From NCBI GenBank assembly GCA_947457885.1, contig CANGXU010000014.1, forward strand, positions 1-39,590: 39,590 nt of DNA, written 5' to 3'. Within the stretch, counting starts at the first letter, position 1, and every line of letters starts with the position of its first letter. Source of the DNA: Betaproteobacteria bacterium. GTDB lineage: Bacteria; Pseudomonadota; Gammaproteobacteria; Burkholderiales; CAIKXV01. The notes below the pieces were generated by a model. The model saw only the letters and a program-made list of their open reading frames with translations. It was not told the origin of the DNA and did not search any database. The position numbers and the translations under genes are program-made. This document shows, one piece after another, positions 7,895 to 32,442 of the stretch.

Positions 7895-8941
7895 ATGGTC
7901 CCGCAGAAGACCGCATGGGCAGTCGCGCGCGTTGCGCGTGCGCGCATTCGCCGCAAGTTCACGGATTCGCTGGTCGCCTGCGCAGCCGTCGTGAGCGCAG
8001 TCGTGCCGACGTTCGCCGTCGCGGCAGCCTCGACGGCCGGCGCCTGGCCAAACCGACCGATCCGCGTGCTGCTGCCGAATTCGCCGGGGAGCGCAACCGA
8101 CATCCTCGGCCGCATCGCCTTCCAGCGCATGGCTGACGTACTGGGCCAGCCGCTGCTGGTCGACAACCGGCCCGGTGCAGGTGGTACCACCGGCGTCGAG
8201 ATCGGCATGCGTGCGCAGCCCGACGGCTATACGATCACCACCGTCACCCTGGCGGTGCTGGCGGTGGCGCCGCATACCTTCAAGTCCGTCGGCTACGACG
8301 TGTTCCGCGACATCCAGCCGGTCTCGGTGTTCGCGATTGCGCAGACGGGTGTCTGCGTCAACGCGCAGTTGCCGGTGCAGTCGGTACGCGACCTGGTTGA
8401 ACTCGCACGGGCGCGCCAGGGCCGCCTGCTGATGGCTTCGGCCGGCATCGGCTCCACCAGCCACATGGGCGGGCTGCTGTTCACCTCGCTGGCGAAGATC
8501 GAGGCGACCCATGTGCCGTACAAGGGCGGTGGCCCGTCGATGGCGGCGGTGGCACAGGGCGAGGCAGATTTCACCGTCGGGCCGATCGTCGCGGCCATGA
8601 TGCATGTGAAGGCCGGGCGCACACGTTGCCTGGCCACCGGTGGCGAACGGCGCTCGGCGCTCTATCCCGACCTGCCGACCCTGGCCGAGGCCGGCGTGCC
8701 TGGCTACCGCTACAGTGGGTGGAACGGCATCGTTCTGCCGGCGAACACGCCACGCGCGGTCATCGACCGCCTGCATGGTGCGCTGGTGGCGGTTCTCAAG
8801 CGCGACGACGTGCGCCAGCTGTACGCGGCCCAGGGCGAGGAGCCGGCCTGGAATGCACCGGAGGCATTCGCACGGATGATCCGCGAGGACTTCGACGCGA
8901 TGGGCAAGCTGGTGAAGGCGGCGGGCGTCCGGGCGGAGTAG
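7895..8941 (+). CDS. Bug-family TTT periplasmic binding protein
   Basis: A 348-residue exported receptor of the tripartite tricarboxylate transporter (Bug/TctC) family. It has a long basic N-terminus then a signal segment (about 24-45). Family motifs are PIRVLLPNSPGSATDILGR, the DNRPGAGGTTG loop, PDGYTI, VPYKGGGP, and the PDLPTLAEAGVPGY segment. TctC-type proteins usually bind carboxylates, but the ligand cannot be read from the sequence. No TctA/TctB genes are nearby, as is usual for Bug proteins in Burkholderiales. The ATG at 7895 has a near-perfect ribosome site (GGAGGAGG, six bases away). It converges on the two-cupin gene, with 19 bases between stops. Confidence 0.92.
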   Translation: MVPQKTAWAVARVARARIRRKFTDSLVACAAVVSAVVPTFAVAAASTAGAWPNRPIRVLLPNSPGSATDILGRIAFQRMADVLGQPLLVDNRPGAGGTTGVEIGMRAQPDGYTITTVTLAVLAVAPHTFKSVGYDVFRDIQPVSVFAIAQTGVCVNAQLPVQSVRDLVELARARQGRLLMASAGIGSTSHMGGLLFTSLAKIEATHVPYKGGGPSMAAVAQGEADFTVGPIVAAMMHVKAGRTRCLATGGERRSALYPDLPTLAEAGVPGYRYSGWNGIVLPANTPRAVIDRLHGALVAVLKRDDVRQLYAAQGEEPAWNAPEAFARMIREDFDAMGKLVKAAGVRAE

Positions 8942-9952: not shown

Positions 9953-10537
9953 ATGCCAGGCAGCAGCAGTGAACTGACCATTCGTGAGTGCGCGTTCGAG
10001 ATCATTCGCCTGTGTGAGGCGCTCGCGCTGGACAACGCCGCGCTTGCCCGAGCCTTGCAGGCTCCTCTGCAGCGCATCGTCTCGCTGCCCGACCTGCTGT
10101 CTCTCGGGGTGAAGCGCCAGGGTAACCACATCGACAACTCGAAGTACCTGTACTACGACGGCCAGCTGGTCATCTCGCTCGACGAGTTTCCCAAAGGCAA
10201 GCGCATTCCCCCGCATGACCACGGTGTCTGGGAGGCGATTGCGATGTACCGCGGCAGCGTCGAGCACACCGTCTACGAGCGGATAGACGATGGCAGTCGC
10301 GAGGGGTATGCCGAGCTCGCGGTGGTGGACGATCGGCGCCTGGGTCCCGGCGACGTGTGCGTGCTGATCCAGCCCGCAGAGATCCACAGCTTCGCGGCGC
10401 TGGAAGAGGGCACGCATTCGCTGACCGTCGTCGGCGGACATTACGCCGAACTGCGTCACTACTTCAATCCGGCGGACAAGACCTGCGTGGTGCGTCGGCC
10501 TCGTCCGGTGAGCCAGGCGCGCGTTGCCGCGAACTAG
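9953..10537 (+). CDS. Cysteine-dioxygenase-like cupin (thiol dioxygenase family)
   Basis: A soluble 194-residue cupin. The metal motif PPHDHGVWE gives His88 and His90, and IHSFAAL gives His145, the three-histidine iron site seen in thiol dioxygenases such as cysteine and 3-mercaptopropionate dioxygenase. The YRGSVEHTVYER strand and total length (about 190-200) also fit. If active it would oxidise a small thiol to its sulfinate with O2. ATG 9953 is preferred, with GAGGG six bases upstream; TTG at 9947 is an alternative. The 3' end overlaps, in antisense, the small Cys-rich gene at 10464-10664. Family is likely; the thiol substrate is unknown. Confidence 0.78.
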   Translation: MPGSSSELTIRECAFEIIRLCEALALDNAALARALQAPLQRIVSLPDLLSLGVKRQGNHIDNSKYLYYDGQLVISLDEFPKGKRIPPHDHGVWEAIAMYRGSVEHTVYERIDDGSREGYAELAVVDDRRLGPGDVCVLIQPAEIHSFAALEEGTHSLTVVGGHYAELRHYFNPADKTCVVRRPRPVSQARVAAN

Positions 10538-10664
10538 GCGCGGTCGCAGTCGACAGGGGCGCTCGGCACATCCTGTGGCCATCCCACTGCTGGCCGCACC
10601 AGCACCGGCCTGCGCTGTCGATGATGCAGGCGCCACTGCCGCAGCAGCGCGTGTCTTCAGTCAT
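10464..10664 (-). CDS. Small Cys-rich protein with CCGSG...CWCGQQWDG core
   Basis: A 66-residue protein. Residues 7-35 have five cysteines in the order CCGSGAC, CWC and MC, around a CWCGQQWDG motif. I recall this pattern from short, uncharacterised proteins of Burkholderiales that are about 40 residues long. The ATG (10662-10664) has GAGG about eight bases upstream. After residue 37 the sequence becomes Ser/Arg/Pro-rich because it runs antisense through the last 74 bases of the cupin gene, so the tail may be a recent extension. The cysteines suggest metal or Fe-S binding, or a redox role. Function is unknown. Confidence 0.66.
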   Translation of the reverse strand: MTEDTRCCGSGACIIDSAGRCWCGQQWDGHRMCRAPLSTATAPSSRQRAPGSPDEADAPRRSCPPD

Positions 10665-11293
10665 GGTGCGTTCCTCGAGGGGAGGGTCGGCTGCTGCGTG
10701 CCGATGCGACAAGCTGAGCCCATCAGGCTGCCGGCATCGAGCACGACGGCGAAGCTCCTGATGAGCGTACAGTCGAAGCGAGCGGGGTTGCTTGCGTCGA
10801 CTCGGGAATGTACAGCTTGAATGCATACGCAGGCAATTGCCGGATACGCACGCTGCGCCCGGCATGATGTCCCGTGAATCCATCGAACAGGGCCTCTTTC
10901 ATGAGCGACTCGCGAGATCCCTCGTCAGCGCTCGAGCGGCACGTACTGATTCTCGGGGCGGGTGATCGCCGAGGCAGGCTGGCGGGTGCTGGCGCAGGGT
11001 TGCCGAGCACCGCCCGCGCTGCCGCCGGGCGCAATCCACGTCGGCGTCGATGTTTCGGACGTCAGGAAGCGGGCACTCGCAAGCCCTGGCGCAATGGTGG
11101 TGATCTATGCTGTCAACTCTGTCGTCCGCAACCGAGTCGTCCCCGGCCGCAGAGAGGCGCCAGCAGCTGTAACGTCAGCTTGGCGACGGGGCGAAAAAGT
11201 CGGCTGTACCGGCACAGGAAACCATTCGCGAAACCGGGGTCAAGTTCGATGGCGAACGGCCGTAATGACGGACTGGACCACGGACCCCGCGCG
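10665..11293. other. 629-base gap with no intact gene
   Basis: No intact gene is visible between the small Cys-rich gene and the Cache-CheW gene. The first part (10665-10900) should hold the promoter of the small gene; no clear hexamers are seen. The second part contains the Rossmann-like remnant listed separately. The last part, about 11150-11293, shows nothing recognisable apart from a possible upstream start (ATG 11249) for the Cache-CheW gene. Confidence 0.5.
10901..11150 (+). pseudogene. Possible decayed NAD(P)-binding (Rossmann) protein start
   Basis: From ATG 10901 the frame reads MSDSRD, then ERHVLILGAG, a typical start of a Rossmann nucleotide-binding domain (glycine-rich VLILGAG). 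The frame then loses sense at about 10963. A neighbouring frame continues sensibly with VIAEAGWRVLAQG, HVGVDVSD and a strand reading MVVIYAVN, as in short YeeZ/NmrA-like epimerase-type proteins. It then ends without the rest of the domain. This fits a frameshifted, truncated remnant, but it is a judgement by eye and the match is short. Confidence 0.32.
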
Positions 11294-13843
11294 ATGATTC
11301 CACCGAACGACCTCGTTACCCATATGCCCCGCGTTCAAGCGGGGGAGACCGACCTGCGCGACCTGTTCGTCGTGTGGCAGATGATCGAATCGAGCGCGGC
11401 CATCAGCTGTCCGGAAGCGGTCGCTCCAATCCTGCCGGCCTTGCTGCGCACCAGGGAGCGGTTCAACAGCCTGCGCGTTCGGGTGATCGAAATGATGGTG
11501 CGCGAGAACCTGGGTGCGCTGGAGGACGAACTGGCGGCCAAGGCCCAGTGCGCGATCGACATCCTCGTGAGAAACCTGTTCGAGCGTACCGCCGATGTCG
11601 GCTTTCTCGCGACAGACGACGTGGTACGCGCATTCTGCGCAGCGCCTGAACGCACCGAGGCGGACCGGCAGGCCATGGTTCAGCGACTCGCTGAGTATCA
11701 GTCAAAGTACACAGTCTACGATGATGTCATCCTGTTAGGCGCGGACGGCAGGGTGCTCGCGCGGCTCGACGAAAGCGCCAGCCTCGAGACGAGCCGCGAT
11801 CCGCTGGTTGCCGGTGCACTGGCGAAGGACGGTTATGTCGAGCGGTTCGGCCGCAGCGACCTCGGTACCGCTGGCGAAGCGTCGCTGCTCTACGCGCAAC
11901 GGATCACTCGCGGTAACGGTCGAGACGCCGCGGTCGGCGTGCTGGTGCTGCGCTTCCGCTTTGCCGACGAGATGGAGCGTATCTTCGAGGGCATCAATGC
12001 GGACAATCCGCGACTGGCACTGGTGCTGATCGACGAGCAACAGCGCGTGGTGGCGACCAACGACCAGGCGCACGTCCCGACCGGCGCGAAACTGGCGTCG
12101 CAGGAGGGAAACGGCATAGCGCTGTGTTCCTATGCGGGCCGCGAATATCTGTCGGTCTGCCGGTCGAGCAACGGCTATCAGGGGTACCCCGGCCCGGCAT
12201 GGCGCGCACAAGCCATGGTGTCGCTGCTCAACGGCTTCAAGTCGCCGATGGGGAACCAGAATGACGATACCGACCTGAAGGCCCCGCTGGACAACACCGA
12301 CCTCGCGACCATGATCGGCGATGCCGAAGTGATCAGCAGGGAACTGCGCCGGGTGATGTGGAACGGTCGCCTTATGGCCGGCGAGCATGGAGGCGACCAG
12401 TTGCGGCTGAAGGCGGTCCTAAAGCAGGTGAACGAGGCCGGACAGCGCACACGCGAGCGTGCGGGCCTGGGCCTGGACGACATCCACCGCACGGCCGTTG
12501 CGCGCGTACGCCGGCAGACGCGGGAACTGGCGCGACTGGCCGGCGACATCATGGACCGCAATCTGTACGAGCGCGCTAACGATGTGCGCTGGTGGGCACG
12601 CTCGCCTGTACTGCGCGAGGTGCTGGCCGGGCCCGCCAGTCCGGAAACGAGCGGCCGCCTGGCACAGGTCCTGGACTATATCAACGGTCTGTACACGGTG
12701 TACAACCGGCTTGTAGCGTTCGACGCCCGTGGCGTCGTGCGTGCCGTGTCTCATGCAGGGGAAGGGGCGGTATTGACCGGATTGTCCGTGCCCGAGGCCT
12801 GGCTGACCTCGGTCTCGCACCTGCGCGACACGCATCAGTACGCGGTCACGCCGTTCGAGGACACATCGATGCATGCCGCCGGCCCGACCTATGTCTACCT
12901 GGCGGCCGTCAGGTCATCGGAAGGAACGCTATCCGGCGGTATCGCCATCGTCTTCAATGCAGCCACGGAGTTCCCGGCGATGCTGCGTGACATCATGGGT
13001 GGTCTTTCGGGTGCAGCTGCGTTCATCGACGACCAGGGCCGTGTGATCGCTGCCACCGATGCCGATCTGACGCGCAGGCTGGCCGAAGGCTTCCACGGCG
13101 GATCGGGGATTGTCGAGCAGAATGGAGTGCACTATGTCTGTGCGCGCGTGAAGGCCCCCGGATATCGCGAGTTCAAGGGCAGCGACCGGTATGACAACGG
13201 AGTCGAGGTGATCGTCGGCATCCGGCTCGGCACCAACGCGGACTACCTCGCGCGGGCCGATTCGCTCGAACTGCAGCCGATGGCGGTCACGCTGGGCACG
13301 CCGACGCGCGAAGTCGCTGTCTTCGATGTCGGCGGTGCCCTGTATGCGCTTCCGGCCTACGAGGTGATCGACGCGATCCTGCCCCGTGGGCTGGCACGTA
13401 CCCCCGGTTCTGGCGGTGCAGCTCTCGGCCTCATCGAGGTCGGTTCCGGCAGTGCGGCGCGCGTGATTCCAGTGATCTGCGCGCGCCGGTTGTTCGGCAT
13501 GCCCGACCGCGCTGCCGAGGCGGAAAGCCTTTTGATCGTGTTGCGCTCGACGGCACAGAAGGAGGTTCCCGCCTTTGCCCTGCGAGTGGACGATGTCGCG
13601 ACGGTGCTCGACGTCGCCCATGAGCATGTACATCCGGCTCCCGAGGGCATGGCGTCCTTCACGCCCTGGATCACGTCGGTGATCGACGCGGAGGTGGTCA
13701 CCCGACTCGGGCAACGGTCATCGCTGGTGCAGTTGCTCGACTGTGCCAAGTTGCTCGAGGTCATCAGCAACAGGGGCACAGGCGCTGCGTCGGAGGCGAG
13801 GGTCGATGCGGCTGCGCAATCGGAGACGGTGGGAGAAAGCTGA
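11294..13843 (+). CDS. Soluble double-Cache sensor with C-terminal CheW domain
   Basis: An 849-residue protein with no transmembrane segment or signal peptide. Residues about 80-290 and 395-645 are two related sensory units. Each starts with a helix carrying a shared motif (NLFERTADVGFLA at 94-106; NLYERANDVRWWA at 423-435), then a YTVYDDVILLGADGRV or YTVYNRLVAFDARGVV strand pair typical of Cache/PDC sensors. Residues about 672-825 are a CheW-like domain (EVAVFDVGGALYALPAYEV; FALRVDDVATVLDV). It could couple a cytoplasmic signal to a CheA kinase array, but no chemotaxis genes are adjacent. No receptor signalling domain or kinase domain is present. The start is uncertain: ATG 11249 would add 15 residues, and neither start has a strong ribosome site. 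Confidence 0.8.
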   Translation: MIPPNDLVTHMPRVQAGETDLRDLFVVWQMIESSAAISCPEAVAPILPALLRTRERFNSLRVRVIEMMVRENLGALEDELAAKAQCAIDILVRNLFERTADVGFLATDDVVRAFCAAPERTEADRQAMVQRLAEYQSKYTVYDDVILLGADGRVLARLDESASLETSRDPLVAGALAKDGYVERFGRSDLGTAGEASLLYAQRITRGNGRDAAVGVLVLRFRFADEMERIFEGINADNPRLALVLIDEQQRVVATNDQAHVPTGAKLASQEGNGIALCSYAGREYLSVCRSSNGYQGYPGPAWRAQAMVSLLNGFKSPMGNQNDDTDLKAPLDNTDLATMIGDAEVISRELRRVMWNGRLMAGEHGGDQLRLKAVLKQVNEAGQRTRERAGLGLDDIHRTAVARVRRQTRELARLAGDIMDRNLYERANDVRWWARSPVLREVLAGPASPETSGRLAQVLDYINGLYTVYNRLVAFDARGVVRAVSHAGEGAVLTGLSVPEAWLTSVSHLRDTHQYAVTPFEDTSMHAAGPTYVYLAAVRSSEGTLSGGIAIVFNAATEFPAMLRDIMGGLSGAAAFIDDQGRVIAATDADLTRRLAEGFHGGSGIVEQNGVHYVCARVKAPGYREFKGSDRYDNGVEVIVGIRLGTNADYLARADSLELQPMAVTLGTPTREVAVFDVGGALYALPAYEVIDAILPRGLARTPGSGGAALGLIEVGSGSAARVIPVICARRLFGMPDRAAEAESLLIVLRSTAQKEVPAFALRVDDVATVLDVAHEHVHPAPEGMASFTPWITSVIDAEVVTRLGQRSSLVQLLDCAKLLEVISNRGTGAASEARVDAAAQSETVGES

Positions 13844-21493: not shown

Positions 21494-22483
21494 ATGAACG
21501 TCGACACGGGTTTGCGCGGGTCATGCAGCATCCTTGCAGCCGCACTGCTGTGCTGTGCCACCGCTCCGGGCGCGGTGATGGCGCAGGACTATCCGACCCG
21601 GCCGGTACGTATCGTCGTGCCGTTCCCGGCTGGCGGTACTACCGACATCATCGGGCGCATCGTCGGGCAGCGACTGACCAGGGACTGGAAGCAGCAGGTG
21701 CTTATCGACAACCGACCGGGTGGCGGCGCGAATATCGGTGCCGAACTGGCCATGCGGGCTGCGCCCGACGGCTATACGCTGTTCATGGCATCGACCGCGC
21801 ACAGCATCAACGCGACGCTGTATCCGAAGCTCGCCTACGATCCGATCAAGGACTTCACCGCGATCTCGATGATGGCCGACACCGCGCAGGTGCTGGTCGT
21901 GCACCCGTCGTTGCCGGTGAAGGACGTGCGCGGTCTCATCGCGCTGCTGAAGCAGCGCCCTGGCGACCTCAGCTACAGCTCGGCGGGCAACGGCAGCCAG
22001 CCGCACCTGTCGGCCGAGATGTTCCGGATGCTGACCGGAACCCGCATGACCCACATCCCCTACAAGGGCGGTCCGCAGGCGATGACCGACCTGATCGCCG
22101 GTTTCGTCGCGCTGTCCTTCGCGACCGCGCCTTCGGCCGTACCCCACGTCAAGTCCGGCAAGGTGCGGGCGCTCGGCGTCAGTTCGCTCGCGCGCATCCC
22201 GGCGCTGCCGCAGGTGCCGACGATCGACGAATCCGGCCTCGCCGGTTTCGAGGCCAACAACGTGTTCGGCATGGTCGGCCCGCCCGGCCTGCCAGCCGCG
22301 CTGGTCGAACGCATCAATGCCGATCTGGTGGCGGCGCTGAAAGACCCGGGCATCCGGGGCGCGTTGAGCGAGCAGGGGGCCGAAGCGCGGCCGAGCACAC
22401 CCGCGGAGTATGCTGCGCTGATCCGCAACGAGGTCGCGAACTGGGGCAAGGTGGTGCGCCAGTCCGGTGCGCGGGTCGACTGA
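21494..22483 (+). CDS. Bug-family TTT periplasmic binding protein
   Basis: A 329-residue exported receptor of the Bug/TctC family. Signal peptide is about residues 1-31 (ending PGAVMAQ). Family motifs are RPVRIVVPFPAGGTTDIIGR, DNRPGGGANIG, APDGYTLFM, HIPYKGGPQA and the late VPTIDESGLAGF. ATG 21494 is chosen: AGGAGG lies seven bases upstream, and the GTG three bases earlier would be too close. It sits 52 bases after the racemase-like gene and 31 before the aldolase gene, so its ligand is probably the substrate or product of those enzymes. No membrane partners are encoded nearby. Confidence 0.92.
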   Translation: MNVDTGLRGSCSILAAALLCCATAPGAVMAQDYPTRPVRIVVPFPAGGTTDIIGRIVGQRLTRDWKQQVLIDNRPGGGANIGAELAMRAAPDGYTLFMASTAHSINATLYPKLAYDPIKDFTAISMMADTAQVLVVHPSLPVKDVRGLIALLKQRPGDLSYSSAGNGSQPHLSAEMFRMLTGTRMTHIPYKGGPQAMTDLIAGFVALSFATAPSAVPHVKSGKVRALGVSSLARIPALPQVPTIDESGLAGFEANNVFGMVGPPGLPAALVERINADLVAALKDPGIRGALSEQGAEARPSTPAEYAALIRNEVANWGKVVRQSGARVD

Positions 22484-31437: not shown

Positions 31438-32442
31438 TCACTCGGCGCGGATCTTCGCCTCGCGCGCGATCTTTGCGAAGCGCTCCAGGTCGACTGCGAT
31501 CCGCTTGCGAAACTCGTCGGGGGTGTTGCCGACGGGAACCGTGCCGTCGCCCTGCAGCCGCTCCAGCACGTCGGGCATGCGCAGCGTTCCGGTGTACTCC
31601 GCGTGCATCCGCGCAATCAGTTCCTTCGAGGCCTTCGGCGGCAGCAGCAGGCCGAACCAGGTGCCGATGTCGAAGCCCGGATAGCCGCTTTCGGCGATCG
31701 TGGGCAGGTCGGGCAGGACGCCCGAGCGCTTGGCGGTAGTCATCGCGATCGGCCGCAGCTTGCCGCCCTTGATGTGGCCGATGGCCGCGTTGATCGGCGA
31801 GGAAAACAATTGCGCTTCGCCGGCGATCACCGCGGCCAGCGCGGGGCCGGCTCCCTTGTATGGCAGGTGCACGGTGCGGATCCCCGCGGCACGGTCAAGC
31901 ATCTCGCCGGAGAAGTGGCTGCCGGCACCGATGCCCGAGGATGCGTAGTTGAGCGAGCGCGTGCGTGCCAGCGCCACCAGTTCCTTCAGGTTGGTGACCG
32001 GCACCGTCGGGTTCACCACCAGCACGTGCGGTACCTCGGCGATCAGCGATACCGGGCTGAAGTCGACCAGCGTACGGTAGGGCAGTTTCTCCTGGATCGC
32101 CGGCGCGATCACCGCGCTGGTCGACTGCGTGAGGATGGACGTGTAGCCGTCGGGCGCCGAACGGGAGGTTATTTCCATCGCGATAGTACCAGCGGCGCCG
32201 GGGCGGTTATCTATCACCACGGGCTGGCCGAACCGCTCGCTCAGCCGGGGCGTGAGGACTCGTGCGAGTGTGTCCGCGCCGCCGCCGGGCGAAGCCGGGA
32301 TCAGCAGGCGGATCGGTCGGGCCGGCCATCCGTCGCCTGGCTTCTGCGCAAGGGCTGCAGGTGCCCCGGCAAAGACGGCGGCAGACAGTAGAACGAGTGT
32401 GCAGGCGCGGGGCGCGCAGCCGGCAGTGGCGAAGCGGGTCAT
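31438..32442 (-). CDS. Bug-family TTT periplasmic binding protein
   Basis: A 334-residue exported receptor of the Bug/TctC family, third in this window. Signal peptide is about residues 1-32 (ends PAALAQ). It shows PIRLLIPASPGGGADTLAR, DNRPGAAGTIAME, APDGYTSILTQ, VHLPYKGAGPAL and PDLPTIAESGYPGF. The ATG at 32440-32442 has AAGGAG seven bases upstream. It lies 131 bases downstream of the aconitase-X small-subunit gene and carries its own ribosome site; a hairpin lies in the gap. It probably captures the substrate of the aconitase-X pathway. No TctA/TctB genes are near. Confidence 0.92.
   Translation of the reverse strand: MTRFATAGCAPRACTLVLLSAAVFAGAPAALAQKPGDGWPARPIRLLIPASPGGGADTLARVLTPRLSERFGQPVVIDNRPGAAGTIAMEITSRSAPDGYTSILTQSTSAVIAPAIQEKLPYRTLVDFSPVSLIAEVPHVLVVNPTVPVTNLKELVALARTRSLNYASSGIGAGSHFSGEMLDRAAGIRTVHLPYKGAGPALAAVIAGEAQLFSSPINAAIGHIKGGKLRPIAMTTAKRSGVLPDLPTIAESGYPGFDIGTWFGLLLPPKASKELIARMHAEYTGTLRMPDVLERLQGDGTVPVGNTPDEFRKRIAVDLERFAKIAREAKIRAE

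Follow-up and report, generated by a model that had tools for sequence, protein, structure and literature searches.

The gene and its surroundings

Within the window, by which is meant the whole stretch of 39,590 nucleotides analysed here, lies a gene whose product joins two dCache sensor units to a divergent CheW domain (Table 1). The ATG at 11294 is the start from which the homologues of the same genus align. The reading frame stays open for a further 420 bp 5' of this codon, from 10874, and since the congeneric homologues begin at the ATG, the longer frame is not the one used by the gene; it was rejected as not conserved in congeners, in which a conserved promoter occupies the upstream region. 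Pfam analysis of 25 window genes returned transporters, metabolic enzymes or no match and no chemotaxis gene, in agreement with the earlier note, which had seen none nearby.

The stretch before the gene (10535-11293, about 760 bp) contains no convincing gene, and the promoter accounts only for its last part; on its 5' side it is bordered by a small gene that weakly matches PCO_ADO (dioxygenase). Elsewhere in the roughly 40-kb window, three TctC-type solute-binding proteins are encoded (7895-8938, 21494-22480 and 31441-32442), members of a family that is often expanded in Burkholderiales.

Table 1. Features of the tandem dCache-CheW locus, with positions in the window
Feature	Positions	Strand	Description and basis
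FliA/sigma-28-type promoter, TCAAGTTC-N11-GCCGTAAT	11240..11266	+	27 bp before the ATG; conservation in congeners
Tandem dCache-CheW gene	11294..13843	+	Codes for 849 aa plus stop
N-terminal helical segment, residues 1-46, without membrane segment	11294..11431	+	AlphaFold2 secondary structure, hydropathy
dCache unit 1, residues 47-320	11432..12253	+	Long helix with RNLFERTADVGFLA at its end; two PAS-like subdomains follow
dCache unit 2, residues 369-655	12398..13258	+	Long helix with DRNLYERANDVRWWA at its end; two PAS-like subdomains follow; Pfam, duplication, fold
Divergent CheW domain, residues 665-822	13286..13759	+	Pfam CheW, PDB CheW matches, residue analysis

Domain architecture and predicted fold

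The Pfam CheW model matches residues 674-822 (E=1.5e-13, 51 bits against a cut-off of 23.5), while dCache_1 matches in two stretches, with residues 400-596 lying in unit 2, at 38.2 bits, which is under its 45-bit cut-off; three relatives (L113, L114 and L048) pass that cut-off. Apart from these domains, Pfam gave one chance-level DUF match and no MCPsignal, kinase, CheR-like SAM-binding or other output domain, so that the claim of a protein devoid of receptor signalling and kinase domains holds. The protein is not among the seven MCPsignal matches of its genome, and an NCBIfam search returned no match.

Structure prediction and self-alignment, both proposed by the earlier note, recovered the dCache folds and the duplication alike. 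The full-length AlphaFold2 model, built on a 67-member alignment, reached a pLDDT of 88.5 and a pTM of 0.82 and places the helical segment, the two units and the CheW barrel at the approximate boundaries of Table 1, followed by a helix. It matches both dCache and CheW structures. For unit 1 modelled alone (pLDDT 90.2), each of the 50 PDB matches listed is a dCache-type sensor domain or a receptor that contains such a domain, including DctB, PctA, Tlp3 and Mlp24, with DctB and amino-acid chemoreceptors at the top. The characteristic arrangement of dCache_1, in which two PAS-like subdomains follow a long N-terminal helix, is present in the full-length model and in that of unit 1, which substantiates the earlier proposal of two Cache-like units.

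Profile-profile comparison of residues 40-328 with 362-660 aligned 268 columns with a probability of 99.6% and E=6.3e-25; the best of five column-shuffled control profiles reached E=0.095. The units are offset by about 329 residues, close to the internal duplication of about 320 residues first suggested, and share matching motifs (RNLFERTAD at 93-101 and RNLYERAND at 422-430; YTVY at 139-142 and 467-470). Within the family, both long helices end in almost invariant stretches, RNLFERTAD.GFLA and DRNLYERAND.RWWA.

Kyte-Doolittle means over 19 residues peak at 1.44 in the window protein and at 1.89 in the family, compared with 2.92 in a chemoreceptor of the same genome. By hydropathy, the window protein has no membrane-type segment or signal peptide, the N-terminus included, and none of 67 members has a hydrophobic segment, as the soluble protein originally proposed would have it. 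No member, by the same measure, shows the usual dCache_1 setting, extracytoplasmic and between membrane segments. Cache domains in general are confidently predicted to be extracytoplasmic in 78% of cases, with only two small families mainly intracellular (PMC4822843), which makes a tandem dCache in a soluble protein an unusual arrangement.

A divergent CheW domain

Foldseek and HMMER both match the C-terminal domain to CheW structures, which, together with the Pfam match, bears out its identification as CheW. Residues of the fold core are largely retained relative to E. coli CheW: among 67 members, G57 is kept in 67, V36 in 54, E38 in 57, V102 in 65 and V108 in 61. R62 of E. coli CheW, the arginine of the NLRG motif, survives in just 11 of 67 members, and the window protein has GLIEVGSG in this region; the genome's own CheW and both of its CheV proteins have the arginine. 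R117 and F122 of E. coli CheW are interface-2 residues (PMC5181776). At these positions the window protein has H and G, the family is variable, and the genome's own CheW keeps both residues, within an alignment that is approximate for such divergent CheW domains and clear in the NLRG region. Because the NLRG arginine and the interface-2 residues are missing, the standard position in the ring is not to be assumed. CheW is also the least conserved and fastest-evolving region of the protein, with 3 of 158 positions conserved at 95% or more.

A FliA-type promoter before the gene

Both boxes of TCAAGTT-N12/13-GCCGT are invariant across all five congeneric genomes that carry the gene, within upstream DNA that is otherwise poorly conserved (63% mean column identity). 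The pattern TMAAGTT-N12-GCCGNNAW, which was set after the window site had been seen, so that the window match is by construction and the congener conservation and the other genes found are the independent facts, has three exact sites in the host genome (control one): before the MCP heading the C2 che cluster, before the tandem dCache-CheW gene, and on contig C32, where flagellar genes are found as well. Tolerating one mismatch raised the number to 20 sites (control 10), among them those preceding flagellin (fliC), FliD, FlgM (the anti-sigma-28 factor), an HDOD gene and the MCP genes that head the two che clusters. FliA itself is encoded in the host genome (G000:C199), and when the window site was left out of the weight matrix, it still scored far above shuffled upstream DNA. 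The promoter is of FliA form and, judged by its sequence, would place the gene in the FliA (late flagellar) regulon in the genus. This predicted promoter is the best link of the gene to chemotaxis, and it was overlooked by the earlier note.

In the wider family, scores of 10 or above occur in 7 of 80 upstream regions against about 1.1 expected, which limits the FliA link to the genus and a few other lineages. A FliA promoter as a family-wide trait was considered and is unsupported outside these few lineages; most relatives beyond the genus show none.

The HDOD gene of the host (locus L122) has its FliA-type site at G000:C5:41176-41202 (+), 38 bp before the start, and may belong, so far unnoticed, to the flagellar regulon.

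Family and distribution

A scan of 84,980 species genomes found at least 420 loci with relatives, mostly in Betaproteobacteria. The best 80 of these relatives come mainly from Betaproteobacteria and additionally from Methylococcaceae, with single loci from Geobacter, Verrucomicrobiota and Acetobacterium. All 54 members scanned contain both dCache_1, at E<0.01 in each, and CheW. The distribution is nevertheless patchy, as 5 of 369 genomes in a class-wide draw, the host included, carry the gene.

Three of the five carriers from this draw encode homologues that stop directly behind unit 2 and lack CheW (L113:5381-7414 (-), L114:5243-7372 (-) and L115:2-2002 (+)), and no CheW gene was seen next door. 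Their products are, as predicted from sequence, stand-alone soluble tandem-dCache proteins. The three group as a single clade with a support of 98, next to members that have CheW, which is consistent with a single loss of CheW, in a tree whose midpoint root and long branches leave the direction of change open to either reading.

Across 80 loci no conserved gene neighbourhood was found, and recurring neighbours are lineage-specific; an MCP gene adjoins the relatives at L047 and L085. Family members as a rule have no chemotaxis genes beside them, and the absence of such neighbours in the window is no sign of a separate role for this gene.

CheA partners

A search of the host genome (G000; 4.03 Mb, 90% complete) for CheA partners, likewise proposed earlier, found two CheA outside the window, along with seven chemoreceptor matches and five other CheW-domain matches. 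The CheA genes belong to two clusters, C2 (mcp-cheY-cheA-mcp-cheW-cheR-cheB) and C38 (mcp-cheV-cheV-cheY-cheZ-cheA). CheA occurs in 47 of 47 carrier genomes tested versus 236 of 369 genomes of the class, a co-occurrence weaker than it looks, because the counted genomes are related and are not independent events. Within the genus, the gene is present in five of seven genomes with a C2-type (cheY-cheA-mcp-cheW-type) CheA and in none of four without it (one-sided Fisher p about 0.045, hand calculation).

The carriers G043 and G437 (locus L055) have as their sole CheA a 2,000-aa ChpA-like kinase of pilus type. G437 has no flagellin match; G043 has flagellin, yet a flagellar-type CheA was not found. 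One CheA class as the universal partner was accordingly rejected, as carriers range from a single ChpA-like kinase to 11 CheA matches.

Comparison with known systems

The ligand-binding fold is common to the window protein and to dCache_1 chemoreceptors and DctB-type histidine kinases such as PctA, Tlp3 and DctB, which differ in being membrane proteins with a single extracytoplasmic dCache and an MCP or kinase output, whereas the window protein is soluble and tandem. CheV, encoded by two genes in the host's C38 cluster, likewise fuses CheW to a regulatory domain; its phosphorylatable receiver stands behind CheW, while the window protein has two dCache sensors before it. CZB is a small zinc-binding domain, and CheW-CZB proteins are without the dCache units of which the window protein has two. 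CheW-CZB and the other CheW fusions named in PMC10653840 combine, as here, CheW with an input-type domain.

A precedent from the same source is CheWS of Treponema denticola, a soluble CheW-CheR-like SAM sensor that sits in arrays and modulates chemotaxis; like the window protein, it is a soluble CheW fused to a sensor with no membrane segment, kinase or receptor signalling domain (PMC10653840). Since CheWS sits in arrays, the principle of a CheW-fused soluble sensor is known (PMC10653840). The sensors differ, being a CheR-like SAM-binding domain in CheWS and a tandem dCache in the window protein; CheWS was described in spirochaetes and modelled in rings with CheA P5, whereas the window protein is known from its sequence and predicted fold. 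A search of the open literature for Cache plus CheW proteins gave no account of the tandem dCache-CheW architecture, which may be among the 30 undescribed CheW architectures, 12 of them with input domains, in a supplement figure (Fig. S10) of PMC10653840.

Proposed mechanism and alternative readings

The protein is probably a cytosolic dimer that senses a metabolite through its dCache units and acts on CheA arrays through CheW. A dimer is suggested by the long helices, which are typical of dCache proteins. A small intracellular metabolite would bind either dCache unit or both, and the change would be relayed along the conserved long helices to the C-terminal CheW domain, which would dock on a CheA/receptor array and shift kinase output. 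Within the genus, FliA would turn the gene on together with the late flagellar genes; because the gene appears FliA-driven there and both CheA systems of the host are also preceded by FliA-type sites, the target is most likely one of these two systems. In other lineages, the protein seems to serve whichever CheA is present, including the ChpA-like kinase of type IV pili. This reading is favoured by the joint occurrence of both domains, the co-occurrence with CheA, the FliA-type promoter, the MCP genes beside some relatives and the description of CheW domains as confined to chemosensory systems (PMC10542144); the divergence of the CheW domain, the CheW-less clade and the scarcity of FliA-type promoters outside the genus speak against it. 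The earlier note suggested that the protein might bypass a receptor; it could just as well act as a modulator within arrays of receptors.

Modulation might also be purely structural, with a bulky, decoy or spacer CheW altering how large arrays are or what they contain, and with dCache units that serve for dimerisation only. Conservation in the protein is indeed highest in the two long helices and not in the PAS pockets, and the loss of the usual ring-interface residues is expected of a part that caps or dilutes rings. A pure spacer, however, would have no need of four conserved PAS-like subdomains, and both dCache units retain all strands across several bacterial phyla, with the predicted fold intact; the CheW-less members, too, still keep them. 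This reading is judged rather unlikely.

Alternatively, the CheW domain may have been re-used to bind another partner off the CheA arrays, such as a c-di-GMP enzyme, making the protein a cytosolic sensor of another pathway. Its rapid evolution, the missing NLRG arginine and the CheW-less clade would fit, and some loci hint at a c-di-GMP link: in some Oxalobacteraceae and Comamonadaceae the gene lies 15 bp after, or overlaps, a large gene (L061:7773-9971, L089:7509-9968, L068:7665-9971 and L074:7708-9978), which is confirmed as GAF-GGDEF-EAL at L061, L089 and L068 and assigned by clustering only at L074, and PAS-GGDEF-EAL genes adjoin the relatives at L096 and L109. Most loci, however, have no adjoining c-di-GMP gene, CheA is present in every carrier tested, and the promoter within the genus is of FliA type. 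A re-used CheW is an unlikely explanation.

An exported or membrane-anchored receptor whose N-terminal segment was missed, as the mostly extracytoplasmic location of dCache domains (PMC4822843) and the frame open 420 bp upstream might suggest, is ruled out for practical purposes and highly improbable, given that none of 67 members has a hydrophobic segment, that the upstream frame is unconserved in congeners and holds the conserved promoter, and that CheW must be cytosolic to meet CheA.

Implications

A cytosolic metabolite sensor acting on CheA through its own CheW domain can be taken one step further, to a proposal offered tentatively and with some doubt: that the family represents an undescribed, widespread class of cytosolic tandem-dCache metabolite receptors that regulate CheA directly, feeding internal signals to arrays without a chemoreceptor, as a module that may be plugged into flagellar or pilus arrays. 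Arrays are thought to receive nearly all of their input from chemoreceptors. The family offers a clear test of the role of dCache away from the membrane, and such a test is feasible in cultured carriers, for example in Sphaerotilus hippei, Methyloversatilis and Herbaspirillum. If the proposal is true, it would add a second input route to the arrays, in a family conserved across hundreds of genomes, and would reveal a way for cytosolic metabolism to adjust motility.
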